IMG/VR virus record: IMGVR_UViG_3300020470_003365
Span: 1-64,000 of that record
From: a virus
Length of the DNA stretch: 64,000 nt
Direction: 5' to 3' (one strand)
A model generated the notes under the pieces. It worked only from the letters and a program-made list of their open reading frames with translations. It ran no database searches and was not told the DNA's origin. Positions within the stretch are counted from its first letter, which is position 1. Every line of letters starts with the position of its first letter. A program made the translations under genes and the position numbers. Shown here piece after piece: positions 42,830-62,861 of this stretch.

Positions 42830-42857
42830 TATGATATAATGATTTTATTATGAAACA
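42824..42857 (+). repeat. Fibre/enzyme junction repeat, copy 1, with extended -10 promoter
   Basis: 34 bp identical to 46513-46546 except for one base. It spans the last Val codon and stop of the fibre, an extended -10 TGATATAAT (42832-42840), and the ATGAAACA start of the next gene. No good -35 is seen. Confidence 0.8.
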
Positions 42858-46518: not shown

Positions 46519-46546
46519 TATGATATAATAATTTTATTATGAAACA
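46513..46546 (+). repeat. Fibre/enzyme junction repeat, copy 2, with extended -10 promoter
   Basis: One mismatch to 42824-42857. Contains TGATATAAT (46521-46529) 10 nt before the sulfotransferase-like ATG, which itself is inside the repeat. Confidence 0.8.
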
Positions 46547-47375
46547 TGAATATTATTTTATGGCAGGTCTTCCAAGATCTGGTGTGACTTTATTAAAAAC
46601 TCTTTTGGATCAAAATCCAAAAATACATAGTGGACCTATAAGTCCAGTGGTTGAATTATTATATTATAATAATAAATATTTTATTGATAGTGAATCTTAT
46701 GATGCTTTTCCAAAACCTAAAGCAGCACATAGAATTGTTAGTAGTATAATTGATAATTATTATTATGATATTGAAAAACCGATAATTATAGATCATAATC
46801 GTGCATGGCCTGGTAATATTGAAAGAATAAAAACTTATATAAATCCTAATCCTAAAATTATTTGTACTGTTAGGAATGTATTGGATATACTTACATCTTT
46901 TATAACCTTAGTTCATAAAAATAATGATCAAGTTTCATATCTTGATGAATTTTTAATAGAAAAGGGATATCCATGTACCGATGAGCTGAGGTGTCAGCAT
47001 TTAATGAGTATGGAAGGAATAGTAGGACAATCTCTTTATGTTTTATATAAATCTCTTTTTATATGTCATGACGATTCTCATTTATTATTAGTAGAATATG
47101 AGGATATAGTTAATAATCCTGATGTTACTATGAAAAGGATATATGATTTTTTAGAACTTGATTATTATCAGCATAATTATACTTATATTGATAACAAACA
47201 TCCTGAGAATGATAAGGAATGGAATTTAAAAGATATGCATAAAGTTAGAAAAGAACTTAAAAAAATATCAAAAGATCCTAAAGATATTTTAAATGAGGCT
47301 GTATTGTATAATTTTAGTGATTTTGAGTTTTGGAAGAATAATAATCACAAGTATATTTTTCAGGAGATTGCATAG
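46539..47375 (+). CDS. Sulfotransferase-like protein
   Basis: A 278-residue product. Residues 9-18, GLPRSGVTLL, match the 5'-phosphosulfate loop of PAPS-dependent sulfotransferases. KIICTVRNVLDILTSFITLV near residues 107-126 matches the 3'-phosphate-binding segment (R..LD...S). A later LLVEYEDIVNNPDVTMKRIYDFLEL stretch is the usual family C-terminal strand-helix. It would transfer sulfate from PAPS to a hydroxyl or tyrosine; the acceptor is unknown. It directly follows the third propeller adhesin and precedes the hydroxylase and heptose genes, with which it may share substrates. Confidence 0.78.
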   Translation: MKHEYYFMAGLPRSGVTLLKTLLDQNPKIHSGPISPVVELLYYNNKYFIDSESYDAFPKPKAAHRIVSSIIDNYYYDIEKPIIIDHNRAWPGNIERIKTYINPNPKIICTVRNVLDILTSFITLVHKNNDQVSYLDEFLIEKGYPCTDELRCQHLMSMEGIVGQSLYVLYKSLFICHDDSHLLLVEYEDIVNNPDVTMKRIYDFLELDYYQHNYTYIDNKHPENDKEWNLKDMHKVRKELKKISKDPKDILNEAVLYNFSDFEFWKNNNHKYIFQEIA

Positions 47376-47413: not shown

Positions 47414-48106
47414 ATGGCATATACTTTTGAGAATCGTTACAATACTAGGAATCCTCTTGAATGGGTTCTTATAAGAAGGAATGTGATAAATCCAGAGGGA
47501 CTTAAAGAAATAGTTCGACATATGGAAGATTCTCAAAAGAATGATCTTCAAGTGTTTGATCCTAAAAAATCTAATGAAACTGGAGATACTCATTGGAGAA
47601 CTGATAAAGAAATAAGAGATACTCAAGTTGTGGATCATGGTCCTCTAGCTTCTAAGATAGAAGAATTGTTGAGGAATACTGTAAAAGATATAATTAATCC
47701 TTTTTATGAGTTAGAAATCAGTTATAGTGAAGTGCCTCAATTACTTTCGTATGGTGTGGGTGGTCATTATCAACCACATATTGATGCAGAGAGTTTATGG
47801 AAAACACCTGAAGGTGAGTTGATATGGAAGAAATCAACAGACCGTGATATTTCTATGGTATTTTATTTGAATGATGGATATGAGGGTGGTGATTTTCTTT
47901 TTCCAGATATGGGTGTAAGAGTAAGACCAGAACCAGGAATGTTGGTTGCATTTCCATCTACATATCTTTATAAACATGGAGTGGAACCTGTAAGAAAAGG
48001 AATGAGATATTCTATGGTATGTTGGGCTGAGGTAAAAGGATTTCCTACACTTGCGGATATTAATGCAGATTTATCTAAAAGATATAATATTGAGGTAACA
48101 AACTAA
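47414..48106 (+). CDS. Prolyl-4-hydroxylase-like 2OG-Fe(II) oxygenase
   Basis: A 230-residue product with the full facial triad: H122 and D124 in YQPHIDAE, H188 in YKHGVEPV, and R198 ten residues later to bind 2-oxoglutarate. The surrounding sequence (PQLLSYGVGGHY, DISMVFYLNDGYEGGDFLF, VRPEPGMLVAFPS) is typical of P4H-type enzymes. Such proteins occur in many T4-like cyanophages. Target unknown; Pro-rich linkers of the neighbouring adhesins are one possibility. The stop overlaps the next start by 1 nt. Confidence 0.88.
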   Translation: MAYTFENRYNTRNPLEWVLIRRNVINPEGLKEIVRHMEDSQKNDLQVFDPKKSNETGDTHWRTDKEIRDTQVVDHGPLASKIEELLRNTVKDIINPFYELEISYSEVPQLLSYGVGGHYQPHIDAESLWKTPEGELIWKKSTDRDISMVFYLNDGYEGGDFLFPDMGVRVRPEPGMLVAFPSTYLYKHGVEPVRKGMRYSMVCWAEVKGFPTLADINADLSKRYNIEVTN

Positions 48107-48510
48107 TGGAGAATAACATAGTATGGTGTAATGGTACATTTGATATACTTCATCCAGGACATATTCAACTGTTTAAGGTTGCAAGGTCACTTGGTAATAA
48201 AGTTATTGTTGCTACCGATACAGATGAAAAGATAAAGGCAGATAAAGGAGATCATAGACCAATTAATAATCTATGTTATAGAGTTGCAATGCTTGAGGCA
48301 ATTAAGTATATTGATGTAGTTCACACATTTGGTAGTAGACAAGAGTTAGAAGACTTGATAGAATTGTATGCACCTGATATACTATTACTTGGTGATGATT
48401 GGAGGGATGGTGATGTAGTTGGATGGGAACATGCAGGTGAAGTCAGGCATCTTCCAAGAGTTGGTGGATATGCAAGCAGTAAAACTATTGAAAGGATTAA
48501 AAACTTATGA
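48106..48510 (+). CDS. hldC: Heptose-1-phosphate nucleotidyltransferase-like (HldE C-domain type)
   Basis: A 134-residue cytidylyltransferase-superfamily enzyme. VWCNGTFDILHPGHIQLF has the HxGH motif at H16-H19. KGDHRPINNLCYRVAML, PDILLLGDDW and VGGYASSKTIERI match, in order, the adenylyltransferase half of bifunctional HldE (KGDSRP, PDLLVKGGDY, GCSTTNII). It would join heptose-1-phosphate to ATP giving ADP-heptose. In Escherichia coli kinase and transferase are one protein; here they are two genes in reversed order with a 4-nt overlap. Related enzymes use glycerol-phosphate or other substrates, so specificity is inferred from its neighbours. Confidence 0.8.
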   Translation: MENNIVWCNGTFDILHPGHIQLFKVARSLGNKVIVATDTDEKIKADKGDHRPINNLCYRVAMLEAIKYIDVVHTFGSRQELEDLIELYAPDILLLGDDWRDGDVVGWEHAGEVRHLPRVGGYASSKTIERIKNL

Positions 48511-49238
48511 AAGTATTATTGATTGGTGATAGTTGTATTGACAAATATGTTTATGGAGATGCAAAAAGATTGAGTCCAGAAGCTCCTGTTCCTGTTTTAG
48601 ATTATATTAAAACAGATAGTACGGAAGGAATGGCATATAATGTTTTTAATAATTTAAATGCTTTTGGTATAGAGGTTCATCTATTGACAAATGAAGAAGA
48701 GATCGTTAAGACCAGATATATTGATGAGAAGGCTAATCAACAGATACTTCGAGTAGATGAAGAATCTGAAATTAAACCTTTTGATAATGAAGAAGTTGAT
48801 TCTGATTATGATGCTCTTGTCATATCTGATTATAATAAAGGATTTATAACTCAAGAGAAGTTATTTGAAATTTCTTCTACATTTGTAGGCCCTGTTTTTA
48901 TTGATACTAAGAAGACATGTGTACCAGAAAATGCATTTATAAAGGTTAATGAGTCTGAGTTCAAAAAGATTACTCATTTTATTCCTGATAATATGATTAT
49001 AACTAGGGGTGGAGAAGGAACAGAGTATCAAGGTAAATTATATCCAGCAGAGAAGGTAAAAGTCTTTGATGTTGTAGGTGCAGGTGATACATTTCTTGCT
49101 GCACTTACCTATGGATATTTAAAGTATGGTACAATAGATAGAGCAATTCCACTTGCTAATAAAGCAGCAGCAATTGCTGTTTCGCACACAGGAACTTATG
49201 TATTAAAGGAGGAAGATGTCAAAACGTTATTGTGTTGA
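48507..49238 (+). CDS. hldA: Heptose-7-phosphate kinase-like (PfkB family, HldE N-domain type)
   Basis: A 243-residue PfkB-type kinase. LLIGDSCIDKYVYGDAKRLSPEAPVPVL matches the HldE start (DRYWYG..SRISPEAPVPV). KTRYIDEKANQQILRVDEE matches the sugar lid region, and ALVISDYNKG follows. DVVGAGDTFLAALTYG carries catalytic D194 in the GAGD motif. It is about 75 residues shorter than the E. coli kinase domain; the loss lies between residues 60 and 110 and in the central region, but catalytic parts remain. It would phosphorylate heptose-7-phosphate at O1. It overlaps the next gene by 23 nt. Confidence 0.8.
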   Translation: MKVLLIGDSCIDKYVYGDAKRLSPEAPVPVLDYIKTDSTEGMAYNVFNNLNAFGIEVHLLTNEEEIVKTRYIDEKANQQILRVDEESEIKPFDNEEVDSDYDALVISDYNKGFITQEKLFEISSTFVGPVFIDTKKTCVPENAFIKVNESEFKKITHFIPDNMIITRGGEGTEYQGKLYPAEKVKVFDVVGAGDTFLAALTYGYLKYGTIDRAIPLANKAAAIAVSHTGTYVLKEEDVKTLLC

Positions 49239-49566
49239 TATTGATGGTACGATTTGTAGTCCAACTGTAGGTAGAGATTACCATAAAGCAAAACCTTGGA
49301 AAGATCGTATTGCAACAATAAATAAACTTTATGATGAAGGTAATTATATTATCTACTTCACTGCAAGGGCTATGGGTAGATTTTCTGATAAACCTCATTC
49401 TGTTGCATCTGTATCAGCAGAGGCAGCTTTATTTGATCTTACAAAACAGCAATTAGATGATTGGGGTGTAAAGTATCATGAATTAATCATGGGCAAACCA
49501 CATGCAGATCTTTTTATTGATGATAAAGGTATAAATTCTGATGAGTTCTTCCTCAACAAATATTAA
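49216..49566 (+). CDS. Small HAD-superfamily phosphatase-like protein
   Basis: A 116-residue product with D8-I-D10-G-T-I as HAD motif I, YIIYFTARAMGR as motif II (FTAR), a K in IMGKPHADLFIDDKGI as motifs III and IV with the second acidic pair. This capless type is common in polysaccharide clusters beside nucleotidyltransferases. It could dephosphorylate a sugar phosphate. A better GmhB candidate lies at 58785, so its role here is unclear. It overlaps both neighbours (23 and 26 nt), showing tight coupling in the operon. Confidence 0.72.
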   Translation: MSKRYCVDIDGTICSPTVGRDYHKAKPWKDRIATINKLYDEGNYIIYFTARAMGRFSDKPHSVASVSAEAALFDLTKQQLDDWGVKYHELIMGKPHADLFIDDKGINSDEFFLNKY

Positions 49567-49909
49567 ACACGTTCCCAAAGGATGGGGATATGAGAAGTGG
49601 ATAGTCAATACTGATGAGTATTGTGGTAAGCTGCTGTTCTTTAATAAAGGTAAGAGATGTTCATGGCACTATCATAAATTAAAAGATGAGACATTCTATC
49701 TACAGTCAGGTAGTATTCTTTTATTTTATGGTGAGACAGATTCTTTAGAAGATGCCAATACTATTGTATTAGAACCAGGCGATAAGTTTCATATCCATAG
49801 AGGATTGCGTCATCAAATGATTGCACAAGATGACTCTGAATTATTTGAGTTTTCTACGCAACACTTTGATGAAGATTCTCATAGAGTTATAACTGGAGAT
49901 ACTCTTTAA
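49541..49909 (+). CDS. Cupin-fold protein, possibly sugar-nucleotide related
   Basis: A 122-residue single-domain cupin. The metal ligands are visible: H43 and H45 in SWHYHKLKDE, E50, and H91 in RGLRHQM. VLEPGDKFHIHRG fits cupin motif 2. The start GWGYEKWIVNTDEYCGKLL resembles cupins of mannose-6-phosphate isomerase and capsule gene clusters. It could act as a sugar isomerase or epimerase; reaction unknown. It is the last gene of the + operon and overlaps the convergent epimerase gene by 23 nt. Confidence 0.72.
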   Translation: MSSSSTNIKHVPKGWGYEKWIVNTDEYCGKLLFFNKGKRCSWHYHKLKDETFYLQSGSILLFYGETDSLEDANTIVLEPGDKFHIHRGLRHQMIAQDDSELFEFSTQHFDEDSHRVITGDTL

Positions 49910-50669
49910 TAGTAGTAAATTTATAATCACCCCATTCCTTTTTAGCACAAGTGTAGGTTTGATACTTACCTTTTAAGTGTTCTGGGAATGGGATATATTT
50001 TATGATGCCATTATATTTTTCTGCTACCAATTCTCCTACTTCTTGGAAACTGGTAGGATTACTTGTACCTAAATCATAGATACCAGAAGGTTTATCATTA
50101 TTCAATACAATATCTACAATATCATCTACGCATATAAAGTCTCTGAGGAATTTATCAGACCCTTCAAATAGTTTGAGTGCTCCTGTGTCTTTAACTTGCT
50201 TAGTGAATTTAGATACAGGACTTGCTTGGTCTTCCTTATGCTCTTCTCCTTCTCCATAGACATTAAAGTATCTGAATCCTTGTACTAATTTAAATCTATC
50301 AATATTATCCTGAACCCAATAGTCTGAGATGACTTTGGATATTGCATAGTAATTAAGTGGATTGATTATATCAGAGGTATTGCCATAGACAGATGCAGAT
50401 GATGCATATTTAATAGGAATTTGATACCTTATAGCTTGTTCGCATAACCATTCAGTGAACTCAACATTAAAGTGATTGATTGCTTTTAGATTGGTGCATG
50501 TGGTATCAGAGATTGCACCTTGATGAATTATTAGTTCTACTTTATGCCATTCATTAAAGGTACGAAAATGCCAACTGTTATTTTTTTCAACTTTAATAAC
50601 TTCTTTATCCTTTAATTTTTCAAGAAATTTCTTTCCAATAAACCCTTCGTGACCTGTAATTATTATCAT
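49887..50669 (-). CDS. hldD: ADP-heptose 6-epimerase-like protein (HldD)
   Basis: A 260-residue extended short-chain dehydrogenase/reductase. G6-HE-G9-FI-G12 is the NAD(P) loop. IIHQGAISDTT near residue 50, YASSASVYG followed by the Y-x3-K in YYAISK near residue 130, and FRYFNVYGEGEEHKEDQASPV near 155-175 match HldD (YFNVYGPREQHK...AS), as does KFLRDFICVDDIVDIV. HldD converts ADP-D-glycero-D-manno-heptose to the L-glycero form. E. coli HldD is about 310 residues. It has its own minus-strand promoter yet faces the kinase and transferase genes. Confidence 0.82.
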   Translation of the reverse strand: MIIITGHEGFIGKKFLEKLKDKEVIKVEKNNSWHFRTFNEWHKVELIIHQGAISDTTCTNLKAINHFNVEFTEWLCEQAIRYQIPIKYASSASVYGNTSDIINPLNYYAISKVISDYWVQDNIDRFKLVQGFRYFNVYGEGEEHKEDQASPVSKFTKQVKDTGALKLFEGSDKFLRDFICVDDIVDIVLNNDKPSGIYDLGTSNPTSFQEVGELVAEKYNGIIKYIPFPEHLKGKYQTYTCAKKEWGDYKFTTIKEYLQL

Positions 50670-50740: not shown

Positions 50741-52024
50741 ATGTCAGCAATTAATTTTCCCGATAATCCGTCCTTAAATCAGACATATACTGATAAAGGA
50801 TTTACCTACAAGTGGAATGGTACGGTATGGATCAGTGTTGGTATAAGTACGACAAGAATATCCAACATTCGAGAGATTGATGATATATCTTCTAGTTTTA
50901 ATGGATCAACTACACAATTTCCACTAAAGGTTGGTGGTACTGATGTTACACCTGTAACCGCACAGCAACTGATCATCACCATTGGTGGTGTTATTCAAGA
51001 TCCTAATCAGGATTATTCATTATCTGGTGCTAATATAGTATTCTCTACTGCTCCTGCAGCTGGTCTTACTTTTATTGGAACGATCCTTGGAACAGATCTG
51101 CCATTAAATACGATTGCGGATGATTCAGTAACACCTGCTAAAATTTCAACAGGTGGGCCTAGTTGGGCAACTGATGGTACGGTTGGGATAACAAGTGGTA
51201 TTAATATTGTAGGTGTTGCTACAGTCGGTGGAAATGCAATTATAGGTGGTGTTGCTACTATAGCAGGTACTACTCAATCAACCAATAAAGATACAGGATC
51301 TCTTGTACTTGAAGGTGGATTAGGTCTTGAAGGTAATATTAATGCAGGTGGAAATATTACTGCTGTTGGCAATTTATCTGCTGTAGATGGAACCTTTAGT
51401 GGTGACGTTAGTATCGGTGGAACATTAACCAAACAGGATGTTACTAACGTTGATTCTGTTGGTCTTATTACTGCAAGATCAGGTATTAAAGTAAATACTG
51501 GTGGTGTTGATATCTCTGCTGGTGGTATAACTGCTGCTGGTATTGCTAGTGTCTCTGCTGGTGCTGCTGGTACAGTTACTATTGGATATGGTAACACTAC
51601 TCTTATTGTTGATGGTGGAGCAAGAATAACTGGTATTCTTACCGTTGGAACAAGTAGTTTAACACTAGATGGTACTAATAATAAGGTTAATATCGGAACA
51701 GGTGTAACAGTAGATGCTACTGGTTATAGAGTTGGTGGTGATACCTTCTTACATGCAACTGGTGCTGCACTTCCATTCTTGAATGTTAGTGGAGTAACTA
51801 CCAGTACTGGTGGTTTTATGATTGGTATCACATCAGGTGCTACTAACATAACTAATGGCCCAATAAAGACATTAAATTTTGTTGGTGTTGGTAATACATT
51901 CTTAGTATCAGGAACTACAGTTGACATTAGCATCGCTGGCGGTGGTGGTGGCGGTGGCGGTAACGCTAGTGCAAGTTTCTTTGCTAGTGGATATGGTGGA
52001 GCTACATTAAGAACTGTAGAATAA
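50741..52024 (+). CDS. Tail fibre protein (shaft type, Gly-rich tip)
   Basis: A 427-residue product. It begins INFPDNPSLNQTYTDKGFTYKWNGTVW, a frequent cyanophage fibre anchor. Shaft repeats follow (GINIVGVATVGGNAIIGGVA, GSLVLEGGLGLEGNINAGGN). IGGTLTKQDVTNVDSVGLIT near residues 226-245 is shared with fibres at 31497 and 59547. LNFVGVGNTFLVSG and VDISIAGGGGGGGG near the C-terminus match the module seen twice at 31497. The end after the Gly run is only about 20 residues, so a separate tip protein, perhaps the Cys-rich one downstream, may complete it. Confidence 0.75.
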   Translation: MSAINFPDNPSLNQTYTDKGFTYKWNGTVWISVGISTTRISNIREIDDISSSFNGSTTQFPLKVGGTDVTPVTAQQLIITIGGVIQDPNQDYSLSGANIVFSTAPAAGLTFIGTILGTDLPLNTIADDSVTPAKISTGGPSWATDGTVGITSGINIVGVATVGGNAIIGGVATIAGTTQSTNKDTGSLVLEGGLGLEGNINAGGNITAVGNLSAVDGTFSGDVSIGGTLTKQDVTNVDSVGLITARSGIKVNTGGVDISAGGITAAGIASVSAGAAGTVTIGYGNTTLIVDGGARITGILTVGTSSLTLDGTNNKVNIGTGVTVDATGYRVGGDTFLHATGAALPFLNVSGVTTSTGGFMIGITSGATNITNGPIKTLNFVGVGNTFLVSGTTVDISIAGGGGGGGGNASASFFASGYGGATLRTVE

Positions 52025-52044: not shown

Positions 52045-52052
52045 GCTAAATA
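52045..52052 (+). promoter_or_regulatory. Late promoter-like GCTAAATA
   Basis: GCTAAATA lies 56 nt before the Cys-rich gene, which also has a strong Shine-Dalgarno (TAGGAGG at 52092-52098). Confidence 0.45.
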
Positions 52053-52108: not shown

Positions 52109-54382
52109 ATGGCTAGTGGAAGACTAGGTAGATGTATCTTAGGAAACAGAAGTGGGGCTGAGGTATATCATAACCAATCTGGTAAGGAGGTTTCGGTTAC
52201 TATATTTTCTCAAGCCCTTAGCACAACCTTAAATTCTGAATTAACAACTGTTGTTGGAGTTGCTGCTACTGTTTTAGGTAGTACTGTAATAGTAGCAAAT
52301 TCAGGGCAAACAGGCACGTATCAAAGTACAACAGCAATAAATTATTCTTGTGCATTTTGTCGTTGTGATACTGCAAGTAGCGAATATCCAGCACCATCGA
52401 TAGCATCAACAATCCAAGGAGCATATAGAACATGGAGATGTTGTTGTGCTCTTGCAGGTGATTATGGTGGAGCATATCCTACAATGGGTCCAGCATTCAT
52501 TTCTACAGAAGGTAATATAACAGATGTATCTCGTTGTACTACGGGATACAGTTGTCAATGTAATAATTGTTGTGTTCCTATTGTATATGGTGGTAATGAA
52601 ATACAAAGTCCTTCAGTATGGATAGATGCTCAAGAACCAAGAGTATGTTGGGATTCGACTCATGGGCCAATGTATCAGTCCAATGTGGTTGGATGGTTTC
52701 CTCTCGCATACTGTTCTGGAGGTATGTGCTGTAGGAGATGTTGTTGGCCTCAAGCAGCTGGTAGTTTTATAACACAAAGGCAAATTGGAACTGGTGTAAC
52801 TGCAGCACAAAGAGCAGCACAGTTCATGGCTAATCCTATGTGTCAGTGTGCTCAGAATGATACTTGGTTCATGCCTAATGGAGGAACGAATAATACATTC
52901 CCACTTCAGAATTACCAAGGATGTGATTCAAATAATGGGTGTAGGTGTCGGGGTGGATCTCATTGCAACATTCAAGGTTGTAGGTTGTGTTATTATGGAG
53001 ATTATGAGGGAAGACAAACATATACTTTATTTAATTATTATGCATTATGTAATACCCCTGCATGGACTGGTAGATCTTTCAGCCAAGGTGTTAGATGTTG
53101 TTTGACAAATTCTAATTGTGATGACTGGAATACTTGTTTTGATTGTGGTGCAGGTGCTTGTGGATGGCCAGGTCTTAATGAACAAGGGCCATATAAAATT
53201 CCATGTGGAAAGTATGGATCTCCTATGTGGTGGATGATAGCTTGGTGTGGAGATAGTCCTCACACTTGTTGTGATCATGGATTCATAGTGCAAGGTAATG
53301 GATATAGAGTAAGAACTCACTGCAATGAACCATGTTGTGGATGTGTATGTTGGCATAGAAATGCAGATAAATGCCTTAGACACAATGGATGTCATACAGT
53401 TGCTTCTAGAGTATTCCATGCAGTATGTCATTGGACTTGTAAAATCCAATGTGAGTGTAGACCAAGAAATTGTCCAAATAATAGTAAGAGGATGAGTCCT
53501 TATGGATACATGTTTGGAATGACAAACTGTTTTGCTATGATGTATTCAGAGAATTCAACTGCTACATGTCAAGATTATTACTTTGGATTTAATGATATTT
53601 GTTTATGGAATTGTTGTTGGTGTCAGTTCTGTCCTTGTTTATTTACTACTGGATTCAGATTCCATATTCCTGATGAAAACCTATCTCCTCAGAACGATGA
53701 ATTTACTGTAAAATATGTTGCATTTAACCCACATGATTGTTATGTTTATACTGCAATTAGATCTAGTTCTACTCTTGACTGTGGTATCTGGCGAATTGAT
53801 CCTCATGAAATAAGACGACAGGCTGGTTTGTTCTGTGGTTGTTCTAGTGCTAACTGTCATTGTTGTGGTGGTGTCTGTGGAATGTATTCCATGGCTCCAA
53901 GTGATCCAAATTGGGCTGTAGCATTAGCACATGATGGTGGTGGTGGTGCTTGTGCATTGTGTAGATCATCAGTATGGCCTGCAGTTTGGGATTGTGAGCA
54001 TTACACTCGTGGAGGATTCTGTGTAAGTTGTCTTTATAGATCAGGAAAATGTTTATGGACAATGGGAGTCTATAATCATCAAACTAAGAAATGGGATGGT
54101 TTTAGTACTAAAAACCTTTGGCAATGGGATGCTTCTGGAGATCCTTTAGTTCAAAAAGTTAATGATACTTTAACTAGATCTATTACTGATGATTATAGAT
54201 GTGTTGTTGAAGTTTGTAATTGTTTCTTTGCTAATATGGATTGTAGTGGACTTATTGATTATAAAGTAAGTGCTAATCAATATGAAAGAACTGGTATAGT
54301 TCTTTCTAATGGTGATCGAGTTATGGTTAATAACAATAGCGATCATAAAACAAACGTTCAAGTTTGGGGGTTTGAAGGTTAA
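52109..54382 (+). CDS. Very cysteine-rich virion-type protein (about 75 Cys)
   Basis: A 757-residue protein I cannot assign to a family. The first ~75 residues are ordinary (GRLGRCILGNRSGAEVYHNQ, then a Thr/Val-rich stretch) and may anchor it. From about residue 80 to 745 I count roughly 74 cysteines, close to 10%, in patterns CC, CxC, CxxC and CCxC (RCCCALAG, CSGGMCCRRCCWPQ, LWNCCWCQFCPC, CSSANCHCCGGVCG), with many Trp and Gly. Beta-strand stretches such as FRFHIPDENLSPQND and VKYVAFNPHDCYVYTAIRSS suggest propeller or lectin-like folds. It follows a fibre gene behind a late-type promoter. Disulphide or metal stabilisation is inferred. Confidence 0.8.
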   Translation: MASGRLGRCILGNRSGAEVYHNQSGKEVSVTIFSQALSTTLNSELTTVVGVAATVLGSTVIVANSGQTGTYQSTTAINYSCAFCRCDTASSEYPAPSIASTIQGAYRTWRCCCALAGDYGGAYPTMGPAFISTEGNITDVSRCTTGYSCQCNNCCVPIVYGGNEIQSPSVWIDAQEPRVCWDSTHGPMYQSNVVGWFPLAYCSGGMCCRRCCWPQAAGSFITQRQIGTGVTAAQRAAQFMANPMCQCAQNDTWFMPNGGTNNTFPLQNYQGCDSNNGCRCRGGSHCNIQGCRLCYYGDYEGRQTYTLFNYYALCNTPAWTGRSFSQGVRCCLTNSNCDDWNTCFDCGAGACGWPGLNEQGPYKIPCGKYGSPMWWMIAWCGDSPHTCCDHGFIVQGNGYRVRTHCNEPCCGCVCWHRNADKCLRHNGCHTVASRVFHAVCHWTCKIQCECRPRNCPNNSKRMSPYGYMFGMTNCFAMMYSENSTATCQDYYFGFNDICLWNCCWCQFCPCLFTTGFRFHIPDENLSPQNDEFTVKYVAFNPHDCYVYTAIRSSSTLDCGIWRIDPHEIRRQAGLFCGCSSANCHCCGGVCGMYSMAPSDPNWAVALAHDGGGGACALCRSSVWPAVWDCEHYTRGGFCVSCLYRSGKCLWTMGVYNHQTKKWDGFSTKNLWQWDASGDPLVQKVNDTLTRSITDDYRCVVEVCNCFFANMDCSGLIDYKVSANQYERTGIVLSNGDRVMVNNNSDHKTNVQVWGFEG

Positions 54383-55254
54383 TGGCTAGAATTATAAAAA
54401 CAGTATCTTCTACTGGAGAAGCCAGTAGCGGTGGTGCAGGATTACAGGCATCAGATGTTTGTAATATTATATGTAAAAGTATAGTAGGTACAGCATCTAC
54501 TTCTTTGCTTCCAAGATGCCAAGGAGAAACAGGATGGGAATTGATATGTAACTGTGATCATTGGGGAGATTGTTATTCAAGCCCTATAGAATGGGATGTA
54601 GATACTAGTAAATATAGAGCATTTAGATGGTGTATCAGAGGAATTACACACTGTGGATGTTGTGATTCTACTTTTTGCCTGTATCTAGTGGATAATAGTG
54701 GTACATGTCAGGGTAGTGTTTACTATCGTAATTGGGATATGAGGAATAAAACTTGGCCAAATGGTTCATGTTGTTGTTGGTGTTGGCAAAGTAGTTTTGA
54801 TTGTATTTGTTTCTGCTGGTACTGCTGTAGCACTAATTGTGCGATGCCTCAAGCAATAGCAATAGAAATAGGTCAAGCTGCGTCTAAAGCAAATTGTATG
54901 AGTGGTCAACAATCTACTGCAGGAATATGTTATGATATATGTTATGGTCATAGATGGGCTTATTGCGATTGTTCTCCAGATTGGGGTGGTGCAAATAGAA
55001 TGGTAGGATATACCTGGTGTCATCCAATAGTATGGGCTGAGACTCAAAATGCTTGTTATTTTAAGAAACTTAAACTAACTGCTAAATATGGATTAATACC
55101 TACAGATGTAACTTCTTTTAATTGGCAGGCAAAATGGGGTACTGAACCACAAGGACAACCCTGTTGGTCAATGTATGGAATACCATGCACTAGACCAAAT
55201 GTTGCTGGTTCCTATGGTGGAGAAGAAAATGTACAAACCACATCATTCGGATAA
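54382..55254 (+). CDS. Cysteine-rich virion-type protein (about 31 Cys)
   Basis: A 290-residue protein with about 31 cysteines (near 11%). Examples: ELICNCDHWGDCYSS, CCDSTFCLYLVD, and the dense CCCWCWQSSFDCICFCWYCC. It starts MARIIKTVSSTGEASSGGAG, which could be a docking segment, and ends with a Cys-poor LKLTAKYGLIP...GEENVQTT part. It overlaps the 757-residue protein by 1 nt. Trp is unusually frequent. The layout resembles a jelly-roll (strands ending at IEWDVDTSKYRAFRWCIRG and YFKKLKLTAKYG) in which loops have been filled with Cys. Family not recognised; probably a fibre tip or its partner. Confidence 0.8.
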   Translation: MARIIKTVSSTGEASSGGAGLQASDVCNIICKSIVGTASTSLLPRCQGETGWELICNCDHWGDCYSSPIEWDVDTSKYRAFRWCIRGITHCGCCDSTFCLYLVDNSGTCQGSVYYRNWDMRNKTWPNGSCCCWCWQSSFDCICFCWYCCSTNCAMPQAIAIEIGQAASKANCMSGQQSTAGICYDICYGHRWAYCDCSPDWGGANRMVGYTWCHPIVWAETQNACYFKKLKLTAKYGLIPTDVTSFNWQAKWGTEPQGQPCWSMYGIPCTRPNVAGSYGGEENVQTTSFG

Positions 55255-55270
55255 TACGGAGGTAATATAA

Positions 55271-56008
55271 ATGGCAACTCACTTTAAGTTAGACGGAACA
55301 ACGTCAACCACTTCAGAAGATGTAAATTCACAAGAAGAACTTAAAAATGAAGTTATTGAATTTGCATCTAAACATAATGATAATATGGATGTGTTGAGAG
55401 ATTGGAGAACTTCTCAATTAAAAGAAACTGACTGGATGGCATATGAAGATTCTCCACCTATGTCTGATGAATGGAAAACTTATCGTCAAAAATTGCGTAA
55501 TCTTCCTGTATCTACTGATGCAAACCTTTTTCGTATTCCAGATGCTGATTTTCCAATAGCACCAGGAGAATCTGAGATTGCTTCAGATGCTCTTAAATTT
55601 TGTAAAAGTTCAGATCCTTTAGGCATTGCTACTACATCTTGGATTGGTATCACCACTACTGGTGAATATTTTAGACAAAACAAACCAACTATAGATGCTA
55701 CTGTAAGTAGTGCTAGTACTATCTACAGTGCTGCATCAACTACTAATATTGAATTTAAAGTTAATACCGTTAATATGGCTGTAGAGGCAGAATATCCTTG
55801 GCGAACAATGGGTAGTGATCCTGTAGTTGATAAATTATTTGGATATGTAAAAATTGTTCCTGATCCAACAACACACCAAGGTATTGGTACAGTATCTGTT
55901 GCTATTGGATCAAGTATCTATGGTCAAGTAACTATGGATGGTAATATTGAGTTCAATGTGAATGTGGATGGATTAGATAGGGCGTATACTGTAGGGGTTA
56001 CCACATAA
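55271..56008 (+). CDS. Tail assembly chaperone-type (Phage_tail_APC-like) protein
   Basis: A 245-residue product. Residues about 41-75 (VLRDWRTSQLKETDWMAYED, then SDEWKTYRQKLRNLP) match the phage tail assembly chaperone motif (R..LL..TDW...D.P....W..YRQ.LRD.P). The N-terminal 40 residues are polar. The C-terminal 150 are beta-rich (IEFKVNTVNMAVEAEYPWRT, VSVAIGSSIYGQVTMDGN) and look structural. It may fold or attach the Cys-rich proteins encoded just before it (16-nt gap, GGAGG at 55259-55263). It has one cysteine, so the Cys-rich trait stops sharply here. Confidence 0.72.
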   Translation: MATHFKLDGTTSTTSEDVNSQEELKNEVIEFASKHNDNMDVLRDWRTSQLKETDWMAYEDSPPMSDEWKTYRQKLRNLPVSTDANLFRIPDADFPIAPGESEIASDALKFCKSSDPLGIATTSWIGITTTGEYFRQNKPTIDATVSSASTIYSAASTTNIEFKVNTVNMAVEAEYPWRTMGSDPVVDKLFGYVKIVPDPTTHQGIGTVSVAIGSSIYGQVTMDGNIEFNVNVDGLDRAYTVGVTT

Positions 56009-56086: not shown

Positions 56087-57034
56087 ATGGAACGAAAGAA
56101 AGTATTTCACCTTGATGGTGGAGCAGGTAGGGTTATATGTGCTCTTCCAGCATTAGAAAAATATGCAAAGAAGAATCCAGATAAAGATTTTAATATTATT
56201 GTAGGTGGATGGGATAGTTTAACATATGGCAATCGTCTTCTTCAAAATAAGACGTATAGTATGGATACTAAAGGTATCTTTAACCTTTTAATTAAAGATA
56301 ATCAGATTATTCATCCAGAACCATATTTGCTTTGGGAATATTATAATCAGAAATGTTCTTTAGTAGAAGGATTTGATAAGATTATCAACGAAACTGATGA
56401 TCATTCAGATTTGGAACCACCTCATCTGTACTTAGCTAAAGCAGAAGAAAAGAGTGCTGCTAATTTAATAGCCCAAGTAGAATCAAAGCAAAATAAAAGC
56501 ACTACGATTGTAATTCAACCATTTGGAAGGTCAGCAAGAGTTGATAATGGAGACATTATTGATGATAGTACAAGATCACTAGAACAAGATGTTTATCAGA
56601 AGTTAGTTAAGAAGTTATCACAGAAATATAATATTATATTCATGGGTGATCCTGAGTTTGCACAGGCAGTATCTGAAGAAGATCAAATATCAGAAAAACC
56701 ACAAATACCTGACATTCGTGCATGGGCCGCTATTATTGAAGCATCTGATTACTTTATTGGATGTGATAGTATGGGTCAGCATATGGCAAGAGCATTTAAT
56801 ATTCCAGGTACAGTTATTCTTGGATCAACTTATGCTGAGAATATTACTTACTCTGATTATTTCCAAATAATAGAGAATGAAAACGTAGAGAAAACTTATT
56901 CACCAATTCGTGCAGTTGGGTTTGATTCTCATCTTGCGGATAGATTGAATGATGGTTTAATGAATTTTGATGATGATCAAATTAATCAAATTTATACTAA
57001 AATTGTAAAAGATATTAAGGAGAAAGTATCATGA
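56087..57034 (+). CDS. GT9 heptosyltransferase-like protein
   Basis: A 315-residue GT-B protein. The N-terminus KVFHLDGGAGRVICALPAL corresponds to the GDxxxxxPAL start of GT9 enzymes. A donor-side block, IIEASDYFIGCDSMGQHMAR then AFNIPGTVILGST near residues 216-250, matches the GT9 pattern (A....G.DSG..H.A...G.P...L.G.T). TIVIQPFGRSARVDN near 140-155 corresponds to the ligand-binding start of the C-domain. GT9 enzymes mostly use ADP-heptose, which fits the heptose genes nearby. The acceptor is unknown. It overlaps the carbamoyltransferase gene by 4 nt. Confidence 0.76.
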   Translation: MERKKVFHLDGGAGRVICALPALEKYAKKNPDKDFNIIVGGWDSLTYGNRLLQNKTYSMDTKGIFNLLIKDNQIIHPEPYLLWEYYNQKCSLVEGFDKIINETDDHSDLEPPHLYLAKAEEKSAANLIAQVESKQNKSTTIVIQPFGRSARVDNGDIIDDSTRSLEQDVYQKLVKKLSQKYNIIFMGDPEFAQAVSEEDQISEKPQIPDIRAWAAIIEASDYFIGCDSMGQHMARAFNIPGTVILGSTYAENITYSDYFQIIENENVEKTYSPIRAVGFDSHLADRLNDGLMNFDDDQINQIYTKIVKDIKEKVS

Positions 57035-58785
57035 CATATAATGTAATGGCTATCAATCCAAATCATAATGGATCAGTAGCACTTGTAGTTGATGGTAAGT
57101 TAGAATATTACATTGAAGAAGAAAGATTGACTCGTTATAAGCATGATGCCAATCCTTTTCGAGGTATGCTTTATTTGATGGAAACTTATCATATTGATGA
57201 GTTGATAATAGGGGGACAAGGACAAGAAGCACATCGTCTTCCTTGGACAGGTAAGGATTCTTATGAATCTTTGGTAGAAAAATTTAATCCAGATGTAAAG
57301 ATTACTAAATGTCCTGAAGATCATCATCTAAGTCATGCTGCAGCCACTTTTTACGGTTCTGGATTTGACACTGCGGCTGCATTAATAGTTGATGGTTGTG
57401 GATCTTTGCATAGTTTGGAGAAAGGTCAAATTAATGCATTTGAAACAGAAAGTATCTATAAATGTTCTTTTCCTGGTGAATTTGAACCAGTATTTAAAAG
57501 ATATGGTGGAAATGATTTACCAAGAATAATTGATTCTGATCGTGAAATTGATGGTGGGGTAACCTTAGTCAAGGCATATGAAGCAGTTACACAATATCTT
57601 GGATTTGGTTTTATTGAAGCAGGAAAAACTATGGGTCTTGCTCCTTATGGAAAAAAAGATGATAAAATTCCTGAGTTATTTCTTGGTGATAGTATGAGAG
57701 GAGATAAGAATGTTTTTATGGCTAAATATCCTGGAGGAGCATTAATTGATACTGAAAGATATGATTATCTTAGATATAAATTTCCTGCAAATGTTTCTCG
57801 TGATAGCTGGAAAACATTTGAAGATATGATATCTACATGGCATAAACATCCAGAACTGCTTACTAATTCTGCAAAGAATCTTGCATGGAAGGTTCAGAAT
57901 GACACACAGGAAGCTATGTGTAATTTTATTGAAAAAGCAGTTGATATGACTGGTGAGAAAAATATTGTAATTTCTGGTGGATATGGATTAAATGTTATAG
58001 CAAATTATTATTATAAGAAAAAATTTCCTGAGTTAAACATTTATATTGATCCTATATCTCATGATGGTGGAACTGCCATTGGTCTTGCAAAAATGTATGC
58101 TAACAAACATATAGCAGAAGAGGGTGGGGAACACTTAAGAGATCCTTTAACTACTTTATATCTTGGGCCAAAATATGATATAAGATCTGAAGATGTAGAA
58201 GATCTCATTGAAGATAATATGGAACTTACAGATGCTACAGATGTAGATATAGCACAACTAATTAAAGATCGTAATATTGTTTCTATTTTTCAAGGTAGAT
58301 CAGAAGCAGGCCCTAGAGCATTAGGTAATCGTTCTATTGTCTATGATCCAACAGATCCTGATGGTAAGGCTAAGGTTAACACTGTTAAACGTAGAGAATT
58401 TTTTAGACCTTTTGCAGGTTCTATCATGAAAGAACATGCAAAGGAATGGTTTGATCTTCGTGGTTTGGATGAAACACCATACATGATGTATGCTATGGAA
58501 ATGCAAGATAAGCATATAGGTGAATTACCTGCTGTTACACATGTAGATGGAACTTGTAGAATACAAACTGTATCACAAGAACAGAATGAAAACTATTATA
58601 ATCTTATAAATGAGTTTTATAAATTAAGTGGTATTCCTCTTTTGTTTAATACAAGTTTTAATCTAGGTGGTCAACCTTTAGTTGAAACTATATTTGATGC
58701 TATTCATACTTTGAAGAATAGTCAATTAGAATATCTTTACTTACCTGAACTAGGTAAATTATTGAAAGTACCTAATCAAGAATAA
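57031..58785 (+). CDS. NodU/CmcH-family carbamoyltransferase
   Basis: A 584-residue, full-length member. N-terminal Kae1-like half: AINPNHNGSVALVVDG, EEERLTRYKHDANPF, metal site H98-H99-L-S-H102 in EDHHLSHAAATFYG, ALIVDGCGS, and GKTMGLAPYG near residue 200. C-terminal half: FQGRSEAGPRALGNRSIVYDP, FRPFAGSIM and IPLLFNTSFNLGGQPL. This family transfers a carbamoyl group from carbamoyl phosphate to a sugar hydroxyl or antibiotic. Between a heptosyltransferase-like gene and a heptose phosphatase-like gene it may decorate the same glycan. The stop overlaps the next ATG by 1 nt. Confidence 0.9.
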   Translation: MTYNVMAINPNHNGSVALVVDGKLEYYIEEERLTRYKHDANPFRGMLYLMETYHIDELIIGGQGQEAHRLPWTGKDSYESLVEKFNPDVKITKCPEDHHLSHAAATFYGSGFDTAAALIVDGCGSLHSLEKGQINAFETESIYKCSFPGEFEPVFKRYGGNDLPRIIDSDREIDGGVTLVKAYEAVTQYLGFGFIEAGKTMGLAPYGKKDDKIPELFLGDSMRGDKNVFMAKYPGGALIDTERYDYLRYKFPANVSRDSWKTFEDMISTWHKHPELLTNSAKNLAWKVQNDTQEAMCNFIEKAVDMTGEKNIVISGGYGLNVIANYYYKKKFPELNIYIDPISHDGGTAIGLAKMYANKHIAEEGGEHLRDPLTTLYLGPKYDIRSEDVEDLIEDNMELTDATDVDIAQLIKDRNIVSIFQGRSEAGPRALGNRSIVYDPTDPDGKAKVNTVKRREFFRPFAGSIMKEHAKEWFDLRGLDETPYMMYAMEMQDKHIGELPAVTHVDGTCRIQTVSQEQNENYYNLINEFYKLSGIPLLFNTSFNLGGQPLVETIFDAIHTLKNSQLEYLYLPELGKLLKVPNQE

Positions 58786-59513
58786 TGGGACGTTTTAAAT
58801 CTAAAAAACCACCAACACAACCTGTTCAATTTGCACCTTCACAACCTACTGGTGCATGTCCTACTGGGGGGATGCGACCTCAACAACAGATGGGCCCACC
58901 TCAACAGAATATGGATCCAAATGGATGGCAAGGTCAATATGATCCAAAAGATTGGCCTACTTCTTTTCCAAAACCAATGATTGGAATTGATAGAGATGGT
59001 GTAATTCTTGAGTGGAGGAATATGATTAAAAGATATGAGGATATAAAGTATATACAAGGGTCACTTGAAGCCATCCGTAAATTGAGGTTGAAGGGACATA
59101 AGATGTTTATGTTATCAGATCAACCTAATATCTATAGAGGTTTAATGAAGGATCAAGATGTTCAGAATATTATGAATATTATGATGCAAAACTTTGGTCA
59201 GCATGGTATTTTTAGTATTGATGGTTTTTTATATAATCAATCTGATGATATTAGAGATCCGTATGCAAAACCAAATATTGGAATGTTAAATCGTTCTAAG
59301 AATGAAATGGGTCTTGATTGGACTGATGGATATTATGTTGGTGATACGATAGAAGATATTAAAATGGCAATTAAGTTTGGTGTTACTCCAGTATTAGTAA
59401 GAACAGGTAAAGGAAAAACCACTGAGAAAGAATATCTTAAAGGTATGAATAATAAATATCAAGGAGTAAAGGTATTTGATAACCTACTTTCATTTGTAGA
59501 TTCCTTAGATTAG
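58785..59513 (+). CDS. gmhB: GmhB-like heptose-bisphosphate phosphatase with Pro/Gln-rich N-terminal extension
   Basis: A 242-residue HAD phosphatase. GIDRDGVI (nucleophile D69, acid D71), YIQGSLEAIRKLRLKGHKMF, LSDQPNIYRGLM (TNQxGIxRG in GmhB), KPNIGML and YYVGDTIEDIKMAIKFGVTPVLVRTG follow HisB/GmhB order. The zinc-loop cysteines of GmhB are not present. About 60 extra N-terminal residues are rich in Pro, Gln and Met (QPTGACPTGG, RPQQQMGPPQQNMDPNG) and are absent from usual GmhB. GmhB removes the 7-phosphate (or 1,7-bis) of heptose before nucleotide transfer. This supplies the phosphatase step lacking in the 48106-50669 group. Confidence 0.75.
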   Translation: MGRFKSKKPPTQPVQFAPSQPTGACPTGGMRPQQQMGPPQQNMDPNGWQGQYDPKDWPTSFPKPMIGIDRDGVILEWRNMIKRYEDIKYIQGSLEAIRKLRLKGHKMFMLSDQPNIYRGLMKDQDVQNIMNIMMQNFGQHGIFSIDGFLYNQSDDIRDPYAKPNIGMLNRSKNEMGLDWTDGYYVGDTIEDIKMAIKFGVTPVLVRTGKGKTTEKEYLKGMNNKYQGVKVFDNLLSFVDSLD

Positions 59514-59546: not shown

Positions 59547-62500
59547 ATGAGCCAGACTAAAGCCCAATTATTAGATCCAAAAGGGGATGTAACATATTCA
59601 GGACATATAACTGGAGTTGGTGCAACTTTTACTGGAAATATCACAGCAGCAGACGGTATATTCAGTGGTAATGTTTCGGTTGCAGGGACACTAACTAAGC
59701 AAGATGTAACCAATGTAGACTCAGTTGGACTTATAACAGCAAGAAGTGGTGTTAGGGTAACTGCTGGTGGATTAGATGTAACTGGTGTCTCTACATTTGC
59801 TGGTTATATCAATCTTGCACAAAAAATAGTTCACACAGGAGATCCAGATACTTCTATAGAGTTTGATACTAATATAATAAAATTTGAAACTGCTGGTGGT
59901 CAAAGACTTCGCATATCTGATGATGGTAAAATTGGTATTGGAACAGATATTATAAGAGGTGGAATAGATGTATTTGGTGATGGTAGTTCATATCCTACTT
60001 TACGGTTGGGTACAGAATTATATCAAACAGAGGGAGAAGATATAAGATTTGGTAGAATTGATGCTGGTGCTACTGATGTTCGATATCATTCAATTTGGAC
60101 TAGACATGATGGAAGTGATAGTGGTAATAATATACAGTTTAGAATACATGATGCTACAGGAGCTCCTCATACATCTCAAGCAAAAGTTCTAACTTTAACA
60201 GGAGCTGGAGATGCATCTCTAAGTGCTTCTGGAGATGTTATGGGTGTCTCTAGATTAACCATATTACCTGCGGATAGAACATCTGCATTTGATGCAAGTG
60301 ATGGAGATACATGGCACGATGTTGTTCTAAAACAAACTGGAAGTGCTGGAAATAATGCAGTAGGTATTGCATTTGAAACTAGTACCTCTGGTTATCATAA
60401 AAACGCTGGAACTGGTATTGCAGCAGTCAAGAATGGAACCAATAATGATTATGGTTCTCATTTAGTATTCATTACAAGACCACAAAGTGGTGCTGCAAGT
60501 GAAAAACTTCGTATAAGTGATGCAGGTGCGTTGGGTATTGGTGGTGCTACCTATGGTAATGCAGGTCAAGTATTAACTTCTGGTGGTAGTGGTGCTGCTA
60601 TTTCATGGGCTGATGCTGCTGGTGGTGCAGAATATGCTGGTATTGCTTCTGGTTCTATTAGTACTGGTAATCCAGTTATAGTTCACCCTGACGGTAAATT
60701 AGAAAAAGTTAAAAACAGTTATACGCAAGATATACAAATAGGTGGTGCTGCTAATGGTGATACTGAAATAGATGATCCTGGTGTTAGACCACTTTACTTC
60801 CCTGATGAAGATGGTACTGAAAGATATCTATTCCTGTATCGTAAGAGCATGAGTCCTTATTATAGGACAGCAACAAGGGCAGGTAATAGTTTATCACTAT
60901 CTAGTAGAAACCAGTGGAATGGTGGTAATGGTGCTGGAAATTTCGCAGTAGGATATAATCCAGATCGTAAAAGAGCTGTAATGATATTCTACCAGCAAAG
61001 TCCAGGTGGTTACTGTGCTGTGCAAATAATAAGACCTAACGGTTCATCAATAGCTCAAGGTTCAACAGTTCAAGTAGATACTGGAGGTAGTGTTAATGGT
61101 GTAGGTGTTGCTTATCATGGTGATGATAAATTCATCATTGCATGGTCTAGAGGTGGCACAGTATATTCAAAAATATTAACAAATACTAGTTCAAGTAACT
61201 ATACAGGAATTAGTTTAGGAAATACAGTCACCGTTGGAAGTGCAGGTGGAAATATTGGATCACGAATTTCTATTTCAGAGAAAGATAATAATGGAAAACA
61301 TATGCTGTTTTATCCAGTATTCCCAACTGGATCAAGATATTCTGGTTTCGGAATAAATTATACGGTTATCAGTGTTAGTGGCACAACCCCTTCTTTTGGA
61401 TCTATTTCACATTTAGGTGGAAATGCTGAGAGAGAATATGAAGCTAATAATATGCTTGTTGATTCTTCTTTTGATAGTTCTCAAAATAGGTATCTAGTAG
61501 TTTATAAGCAAGTGCATGATGGTACAGGTACTTATATTAATAAAACCTATGTGGTAAATGCAACTATTAGTGGTACAAGTATAACAATGAGTTCTCAGGT
61601 AGAACTAACAAATAATATAACTGAAACTACACCATCTACAGCTTTTGATTCAAATTTAAATAAACATTTTGTATTTCTTTATAGTACTGCTAACAGTAAC
61701 TCAGTTGTAGCTCACCCATTTACTATTACTGGTAGTGCTGCTCCTAGTGCAGGATCTACATTTAATGTATCAACAGGTGAAAAGGTATGGTATGGTAAAG
61801 TAATATTTAATGCAACTATTGGTAAATTAATTTTTGGTGCTAGAAATGCAAGTTCTTCTGGTGCTGGTAATTGGTTAAGAGCTCGTGTTATCAGCACGTC
61901 ACAAGTCGAAACAAACCTCAAGCGAGAAAATTTCATTGGATTATCTAAGGGTAATTATACTGATGGTAATACAGCAAAAGTAAATGTTAATGGTAGTGTT
62001 GATGAAAATCAGTCTAGCCTTACACCAGGTCAAACATACTTTGTTCAAAAAGATGGTACATTAGCTCTTACTTCTGATACTGAAAGAGTTGTAGCTGGAC
62101 AAGCAGTAAGTTCTACTAATTTGATAGTGAGAGATGAGAATCCTAGACAAGGAATTTTAGGATATTGGAAATATCATTTGAGAAACTGTGGTAATTATAA
62201 ATCTTGGTGTACTTGTGGATGGGTTGGTGCATATGATAGAGATGCTAATAATAGTTGTAATTTCTGTGTAGGTAAATGGCAACCTTGGTGTTGTACCAGT
62301 TATGGAGCAAATAATAAATTTATTGACGCATATAATCTTTCAGATGAAAATGGTGGAAATATGTGTATAGGTTGTGGTGGGATGAGTTGTAATACTCCAT
62401 TCTGTGTAAGTCCTAATGCATGTAATAATAGTTGTCCTGATGGAAGATTCTGGTTCCCTTCTGAAGGATTGTATTGTTATAACTTCAATATGATGTGGTT

Positions 62501-62861
62501 GAATTGTCAGGGTATGGCTCAAGGTGGATGTTGGGCTGTCGTTACGAATTATGCAGCAAAGTGTTGTGCTAATAGAGCATGTAATACAGGTATGCTGCAA
62601 ATTGATACATGGCGAGGAAATCCAAATATGTGTCTCTACTGTGATAGTAAGAAGTATGCAAATAATATACGATTATCTGGTATGGTTTCCGTTCCTGATA
62701 AAGATATAAATTTCATCGCATGGAAACTTTGTAACTATAGTCTTGGAGCTCAGGTTCAATCTGATGGTTTCATACAATGTGAAAATGGGATGCAATGTTG
62801 GTATAATTATGTAAGTTTCACTAAATTGAGCAATAATCCTGGAATGTGTTATATTAACTAA
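59547..62861 (+). CDS. Chimeric tail fibre: shaft, propeller-like middle, cysteine-rich head
   Basis: A 1104-residue product. The N-terminal 130 residues are shaft (FTGNITAADGIFSGNVSVAG) with TLTKQDVTNVDSVGLITARS shared with two other fibres. GIGGATYGNAGQVLTSGGSG near residue 331 matches a block in the 31497 fibre. Residues about 415-865 hold seven repeats with a ...R/K..(V/L)(F/V)(Y/F/W)... strand (YLFLYRKS, AVMIFYQQ, FIIAWSRG, HMLFYPVF, YLVVYKQV, HFVFLYST, KLIFGARN), possibly a seven-bladed propeller. Residues 869-1104 contain about 25 cysteines (CGNYKSWCTCGW, CIGCGGMSCNTPFC), like the 52109 and 54382 proteins. The head position supports an adhesive role for this Cys-rich fold. Confidence 0.78.
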   Translation: MSQTKAQLLDPKGDVTYSGHITGVGATFTGNITAADGIFSGNVSVAGTLTKQDVTNVDSVGLITARSGVRVTAGGLDVTGVSTFAGYINLAQKIVHTGDPDTSIEFDTNIIKFETAGGQRLRISDDGKIGIGTDIIRGGIDVFGDGSSYPTLRLGTELYQTEGEDIRFGRIDAGATDVRYHSIWTRHDGSDSGNNIQFRIHDATGAPHTSQAKVLTLTGAGDASLSASGDVMGVSRLTILPADRTSAFDASDGDTWHDVVLKQTGSAGNNAVGIAFETSTSGYHKNAGTGIAAVKNGTNNDYGSHLVFITRPQSGAASEKLRISDAGALGIGGATYGNAGQVLTSGGSGAAISWADAAGGAEYAGIASGSISTGNPVIVHPDGKLEKVKNSYTQDIQIGGAANGDTEIDDPGVRPLYFPDEDGTERYLFLYRKSMSPYYRTATRAGNSLSLSSRNQWNGGNGAGNFAVGYNPDRKRAVMIFYQQSPGGYCAVQIIRPNGSSIAQGSTVQVDTGGSVNGVGVAYHGDDKFIIAWSRGGTVYSKILTNTSSSNYTGISLGNTVTVGSAGGNIGSRISISEKDNNGKHMLFYPVFPTGSRYSGFGINYTVISVSGTTPSFGSISHLGGNAEREYEANNMLVDSSFDSSQNRYLVVYKQVHDGTGTYINKTYVVNATISGTSITMSSQVELTNNITETTPSTAFDSNLNKHFVFLYSTANSNSVVAHPFTITGSAAPSAGSTFNVSTGEKVWYGKVIFNATIGKLIFGARNASSSGAGNWLRARVISTSQVETNLKRENFIGLSKGNYTDGNTAKVNVNGSVDENQSSLTPGQTYFVQKDGTLALTSDTERVVAGQAVSSTNLIVRDENPRQGILGYWKYHLRNCGNYKSWCTCGWVGAYDRDANNSCNFCVGKWQPWCCTSYGANNKFIDAYNLSDENGGNMCIGCGGMSCNTPFCVSPNACNNSCPDGRFWFPSEGLYCYNFNMMWLNCQGMAQGGCWAVVTNYAAKCCANRACNTGMLQIDTWRGNPNMCLYCDSKKYANNIRLSGMVSVPDKDINFIAWKLCNYSLGAQVQSDGFIQCENGMQCWYNYVSFTKLSNNPGMCYIN

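Follow-up and report, generated by a model that had tools for sequence, protein, structure and literature searches.

Cysteine-rich candidate adhesins linked to a glycosyltransferase and carbamoyltransferase pair in T4-like cyanophages

We analyzed a window of 64,000 nucleotides (positions 1 to 64,000 of the 67.6-kb IMG/VR virus record IMGVR_UViG_3300020470_003365) that is closest, among GenBank entries, to Marine virus AG-345-O18 and next closest to T4-like cyanophages, S-SM2 and P-SSM2 among them. The window is that of a T4-like cyanophage, and its host-recognition cluster contains two adjacent genes for cysteine (Cys)-rich proteins, here called A and B, together with a tail fiber that ends in a Cys-rich tip. 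Genes of this kind stand beside a glycosyltransferase and a carbamoyltransferase at nearly all related loci. Tentatively, and with somewhat less than even confidence, we read these proteins as adhesins of the virion; selection would act on each Cys separately, and the linked enzymes would most likely modify these sites. The argument turns on the following features:

52109..54382, + strand: protein A, an open reading frame (ORF) of 757 amino acids (aa) with 75 Cys
54382..55254, + strand: protein B, 290 aa with 31 Cys and 16 tryptophans (Trp), overlapping the end of A by 1 base
59547..62126, + strand: Cys-poor shaft of the fiber 59547-62861, 860 aa with 1 Cys, PHROG 18345 tail fiber
62127..62861, + strand: Cys-rich tip of the same fiber, 244 aa with 25 Cys, residues 861-1104
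56087..57034, + strand: GT9/heptosyltransferase-like glycosyltransferase (weak profile matches), the marker gene of the cassette
57031..58785, + strand: NodU/CmcH-type carbamoyltransferase

A preliminary description of this DNA had counted about 75 Cys in 757 residues and 31 in 290, with CC and CxC clusters and much Trp, and an ORF recount returns these figures exactly (A holds 25 Trp, nine CC and 13 CxC). The two adjacent proteins are thus real, and a third case, the fiber tip, had been overlooked. Window ORFs of at least 250 aa average 1.09% Cys, and the excess has a binomial tail of ~10^-45 for A and ~10^-20 for B. Because enrichment of TG is confined to codon positions 1-2 and absent at positions 2-3, the Cys excess is selected at the amino-acid level. 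A mutational or compositional artefact, that is TG-rich drift or a wrong frame, has nothing beyond the unusual composition to recommend it. We rejected it as having a negligible probability, given long frames kept in an independent genome, ratios of nonsynonymous to synonymous substitution (dN/dS) below 1, above-average Cys conservation and the restriction of TG to codon positions 1-2.

Among 50,697 phage records, the sole match to A, B and the fiber tip is AG-345-O18, in which the gene order is identical. Identity is 74% for A and 78% for B. Cys are retained more often than other residues in A (68/75 versus 488/680; Fisher 1.7e-4), in B (31/31 versus 196/259; Fisher 4e-4) and in the fiber tip (18/24 versus 94/213; Fisher 0.005). 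The proteins around these Cys evolve fast: dN/dS is 0.51 for A, 0.62 for B, 0.54 for the tip and 0.69 for the chaperone-like gene that follows B, compared with 0.10 for the glycosyltransferase, 0.22 for the carbamoyltransferase and 0.17 for the fiber upstream of A. Fast change combined with better-kept Cys is the profile expected of receptor-binding parts, and A, B and the tip are proteins that evolve fast around a guarded set of Cys. The preliminary description would have counted shifting Cys positions among homologs against its proposal; Cys are among the best-kept residues in this close comparison, and only at a distance, at ~30% identity, do most positions move while the density is kept.

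The preliminary description had further suggested an adhesin or fiber-tip role for the two proteins, and had placed them behind a late-type promoter and just before a tail assembly chaperone-like gene. Both neighbors are present:

50741..52024, + strand: tail fiber protein directly 5' of A, Cys-free and slowly evolving
52046..52052, + strand: CTAAATA, just 5' of the start of A, which we take to be a cyanophage late-promoter-like motif
55271..56008, + strand: tail-fiber assembly chaperone-like protein (Pfam Phage_tail_APC, E 2.6e-8)

A good ribosome site lies at ~52093, ahead of A. The architecture of A also points to the virion. A tail beta-sandwich domain is split between residues 1-80 and residues 713-757, and residues 81-712 form a Cys-rich insert of ~640 residues that holds 74 of the 75 Cys. 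When joined, the ends match a 106-aa tail beta-sandwich protein of the PSSM2_302 type (hhalign P 1.5e-12), while the middle had no hhalign match to anything. In other phages this small protein is encoded ahead of the Cys-rich genes; it differs from A in standing alone, in being mostly Cys-poor and in having no such insert. A recognized tail or fiber domain is thus present in the fiber shaft (PHROG 18345) and at the ends of A, and for B there are only weak fold matches. An adhesin role is supported by synteny, fiber-type domains and the neighboring fiber chaperone gene, and further by fast protein evolution and the covalent Cys-rich fiber tip; the proteins are very probably tail parts that grip the host.

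Could A and B instead be late-made secreted or intracellular proteins that serve, for instance, as a thiol sink or to block superinfection? Such a role would suit the copies in cultured phages, which are all annotated as 'hypothetical protein' and have no virion peptide support. We nevertheless regard it as very improbable, given the split tail-type halves of A, a third Cys-rich unit that is covalently a fiber tip and a fiber chaperone gene that follows B.

A and B fall into no Pfam or PHROG family, and BLASTP finds no mutual similarity among A, B and the fiber tip. Profile searches of the PDB gave no match for A or the tip and chance-level matches only for B. Direct searches of IMG/VR with all three, and of GTDB contigs with B, returned no match because their peptide patterns require near-identical words. 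AlphaFold models of A and B are of low confidence (predicted local distance difference test, pLDDT, 40-46). The model of A is confident only at the ends and, partly, where strands abound around residues 476-570 and 618-676; in that of B, a beta-rich core (pLDDT 46, predicted template modeling score 0.53) is the only usable part and looks like a jelly-roll-like beta-sandwich. Foldseek gives weak matches of B to phage proteins and to lectin or lyase beta-sandwiches (best E 0.014), and one full-length homolog of A from an uncultured phage (E 2.3e-10). Among the checks that the preliminary description had proposed, the search for marine virus homologs yielded relatives; the AlphaFold models are too poor for placing Cys pairs or metal sites.

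The Cys-rich genes are linked to the enzyme pair well beyond this window. An IMG/VR search with the glycosyltransferase 56087-57034 gave 450 relatives, from which 80 loci were kept, and all 80 also carry the carbamoyltransferase. We counted ORFs with at least 6% Cys at most 6 kb upstream on the same strand, in the 73 loci with at least 2.2 kb of upstream sequence. A Cys-rich or Cys-enriched ORF lies near the glycosyltransferase in 72 of these 73: upstream on the same strand in 69, on the opposite strand in two (L034 and L066; L numbers denote surveyed loci or contigs) and adjacent in L046, where a 734-aa Cys-enriched protein (28 Cys, 3.8%) stands beside the enzyme. The sole locus without one is L081, a 9-kb contig. 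GenBank has 23 records with the glycosyltransferase, every one from a marine cyanophage or a virus of a single marine cell, and Cys-rich ORFs adjoin it in nine of nine distinct phages (S-CAM1, S-CAM3, S-SSM7/S-SSM6a, Sf-FS3, P-SSM2/P-SSM5, and AG-345-E02, -F15, -P14 and -O18), labeled 'hypothetical protein' where annotated; S-SSM6a is counted through its copy of an S-SSM7 protein, its own genome being unscanned.

The enzyme-free relatives that we found show no such excess. The enzyme-free cyanophages S-SM2 (99% scanned), Bellamy (all) and SynMITS9220M01 (~93%) have no Cys-rich proteins; a lone call in S-SM2 was rejected as an antisense shadow ORF of a helicase gene. Homologs of A in contigs L107 and L104 are Cys-poor (1.1% and 0.7%), and neither enzyme was found in either contig. 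A Gly_rich_2 protein lies 3' of each, with 1.0% Cys in L107 and 1.6% in L104. Both protein types therefore occur in Cys-poor form where the enzymes are not found. A further IMG/VR scan for Cys-poor homologs of A returned only the query.

The slot beside the enzymes is filled by different proteins. Most loci have one to three glycine (Gly)- and Cys-rich proteins of PHROG 4205/35878, some of which pass the Pfam Gly_rich_2 cut-off, with a mean of 10.2% Cys (range 7.4-14.3%, 77 representatives). A-type proteins are found instead in the window, AG-345-O18, L012-L016, L095, L097, L101, L102 and L105/L106; a B-type protein usually follows 3', except in L016, and L095 ends there. Cys enrichment extends to RCC1-repeat proteins of L013 (2.9-3.2%) and to two Gly-rich proteins of L016. 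The trait is thus carried by A, B, Gly_rich_2 proteins, RCC1-repeat proteins and the fiber tip, and since these several folds are unrelated, it tracks the cassette and not the fold. The PHROG 4205 profile has no match in A, in B or in their relatives in L012 and L014. The preliminary description knew of no named family, which holds for A and B; their analogs elsewhere belong to PHROG 4205/35878, whose function is likewise not assigned. These analogs (Gly_rich_2-like, PF21722) include PSSM2_304 and 306 of P-SSM2, SSSM7_114-116 of S-SSM7 and proteins of S-CAM1 and S-CAM3. They resemble A and B in occupying the same place in the cassette, next to the glycosyltransferase and carbamoyltransferase, in their 7-14% Cys and in being Trp-rich, and differ in their Gly-rich fold, in their one to three tandem copies of ~240-380 aa and in having no detectable sequence similarity.

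Several other observations concern the slot and its surroundings. The RCC1-repeat (propeller) proteins at L013:423-3958 are fiber-like, and their Cys enrichment is apparently in the blade loops. In P-SSM2 (L010, 36318-39761), a 1147-aa Gly-rich structural-type protein reaches 8 Cys per 80 residues locally, far from the cassette. L105/L106 (IMGVR_UViG_3300026094_000189 and 3300008963_000068) carry the order A, B, chaperone, glycosyltransferase, carbamoyltransferase in a contig from a more distant phage, along with other fiber-type genes and a neck-like gene, suggesting that the cassette has spread beyond this cyanophage group. S-SSM7 (L093) and Sf-FS3 (L131) have an enlarged cassette with a second carbamoyltransferase and several prolyl-hydroxylase-like 2-oxoglutarate (2OG) oxygenases, and that of S-SSM7 also includes a tryptophan halogenase, notable beside Trp-rich proteins.

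How the Cys are used can be addressed in the Gly-rich family, for which 139 proteins and their tree were available for a pairing test (sequences of A and B are too few). Even and odd Cys counts are about equally frequent (66 and 73), although parity alone is weak evidence, given that simulated strong pairing lifts the even fraction only to 0.62. On the tree, Cys columns have a mean best-partner Jaccard index of 0.12, compared with 0.10 for other residues, and no paired gain or loss. Simulations on the same tree gave 0.11-0.14 when sites changed independently, 0.13-0.23 when they were weakly paired and 0.42-0.60 when they were strongly paired. The independent change of Cys columns argues against a strict disulfide frame and for individually selected sites; the result is bounded by the alignment and is compatible with weak pairing and inter-chain bonds.

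The preliminary description had put forward disulfide hardening as a possible role, which is not supported as the main one. In such a scheme, intra- or inter-chain bonds formed on cell exit or by oxidation in light and seawater would harden the tips while loops vary, and the enzymes would modify host lipopolysaccharide (LPS) or another target and only travel along. Cys kept amid fast evolution, as in other disulfide-framed variable proteins, and Cys clustered in inserts and tips that are expected to be exposed would both fit, and a change of the host surface has been suggested as the task of glycosyltransferases in marine host-recognition clusters (PMC7029224). Besides the pairing result, virion assembly in the reducing cytoplasm and a near-constant enzyme pair left unexplained speak against it, and we consider this scheme possible, though not probable. 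Improbable, in our assessment, are metal-loaded tips, in which Cys, with histidine (His), would bind zinc or iron and either stabilize the fold or exploit host metal uptake. The very high Cys density and the CxxC and CxC spacings would fit, and iron-binding tail fibers have been proposed for a marine phage (PMC11705849). However, His makes up just 0.4-2.5% of A, B and the fiber tip, we saw no consensus ligand motif and there is no conserved ligand set, Cys positions shift between relatives and change singly in the Gly-rich family, and the enzyme linkage is again left unexplained.

A near-obligate enzyme pair together with independent Cys columns therefore makes adhesin modification the best single reading, with Cys as the putative and likely acceptor. 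The proposed cassette would comprise a fiber, one or more Cys-rich adhesins, a chaperone or other small protein, the GT9-like glycosyltransferase, the carbamoyltransferase and an ADP-heptose-type pathway. A, B and the tip of the fiber 59547-62861 would be variable host-recognition proteins of the virion, and their Cys individually selected sites placed on several unrelated folds. Phage-made enzymes would act on the adhesins prior to assembly, the tips would bear modified Cys, for example S-linked, carbamoylated heptose, and the modified Cys would give a stable surface on which binding loops vary. The most specific version, in which the GT9-like enzyme, phage-made ADP-heptose and the carbamoyltransferase decorate dozens of surface Cys on adhesins of several folds to give sugar-coated tips, is doubtful; if true, it would amount to glycosylation directed at the cysteines of a viral adhesin.

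Several points weigh against adhesin modification. We know of no GT9 enzyme with Cys as acceptor. A, B and their analogs are known from sequence and predicted models alone, and for A and B those models are of low confidence. The loci share ancestry, so that 72 of 73 overstates the independent events, and the enzyme-free homologs of A are two only, in short contigs. Finally, the enzymes could act on host LPS and simply accompany the adhesins, a role suggested for glycosyltransferases of host-recognition clusters (PMC7029224).

The heptose-type pathway itself is represented by genes on both sides of A and B:

48106..48510, + strand: cytidylyltransferase-like nucleotidyltransferase, annotated in P-SSM2 as heptose 1-phosphate adenylyltransferase
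48507..49238, + strand: PfkB kinase, HldE kinase-like
49541..49909, + strand: cupin sugar enzyme of the module, generic cupin match
49887..50669, - strand: NAD-dependent nucleotide-sugar epimerase, HldD-like position
58785..59513, + strand: HAD phosphatase, GmhB-like position in the heptose pathway

In other cyanophages, relatives of these sugar genes adjoin the same glycosyltransferase and are annotated as heptose genes. The glycosyltransferase is a divergent GT9/heptosyltransferase-like enzyme: among 20 members, Glyco_transf_9 matches 12 (best 4.6e-4) and TIGR02201 all 20 (best 6e-6), the window copy falling far under the TIGR02201 cut-off with no Glyco_transf_9 match. Its alignment has a single invariant Cys, C226, with C90 nearly invariant. 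The cupin is annotated as 'cysteine dioxygenase' in RefSeq for L091, L092 and L093, and the window copy matches only generic cupin models and, weakly, D-lyxose isomerase models; a Cys-oxidizing role for it is conceivable. A sulfotransferase (46539-47375) and a 2OG-Fe(II) oxygenase (47414-48106) in the fiber cluster are possible further modifiers of fiber or host glycans. Three large window proteins (34416-37583, 40715-42829 and 43516-46518, the last with a Kelch_1 match and PHROG 19111) have kelch-like repeats ('GYxxGG ... TETxSxxP') and are likely beta-propeller fiber parts; two DUF6445 proteins (40180-40722 and 42850-43470) lie between them.

In logic the proposed system resembles the bacterial autotransporter heptosyltransferase systems TibC-TibA and AAH-AIDA-I, which pair an adhesin with a dedicated ADP-heptose-type enzyme; there, serines of the autotransporters are the acceptors and the heptosyltransferase carries a four-Cys iron finger (PMC4358343). 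In the phage cassette the glycosyltransferase, with its weak GT9 match, adjoins putative adhesins and heptose-type genes are present, but it has no four-Cys iron finger, and we therefore do not place the phage system among them. Host-recognition-cluster glycosyltransferases of cyano- and pelagimyophages (PMC7029224) and the LPS gene clusters of large cyanophages (PMC3037559) cover the same genome region and the same kinds of enzymes; a text search for 'cystein' found no occurrence in the main text of either paper. The cyanophage virion proteomes named in PMC3037559 are those of S-SM1, S-PM2 and Syn9, none of which is among the phages with the enzyme. A search of the open literature turned up no paper on Cys-rich adhesins of cyanophages, subscription journals being mostly outside its reach.

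Taken together, Cys-rich genes beside the enzyme pair point to what would be an undescribed way to build or decorate the viral grip. Such genes occur in the cultured phages P-SSM2, S-SSM7, S-CAM1 and S-CAM3, so the idea can be tested on existing virions. The LPS gene clusters of large cyanophages have been described as possibly 'stuffer DNA' (PMC3037559); if the enzymes modify adhesins, part of these clusters would gain a function in building the virus particle. The glycosyltransferase and carbamoyltransferase would also serve as a marker pair with which to locate receptor-binding genes in contigs of marine viruses, whose annotation has long had a gap here.

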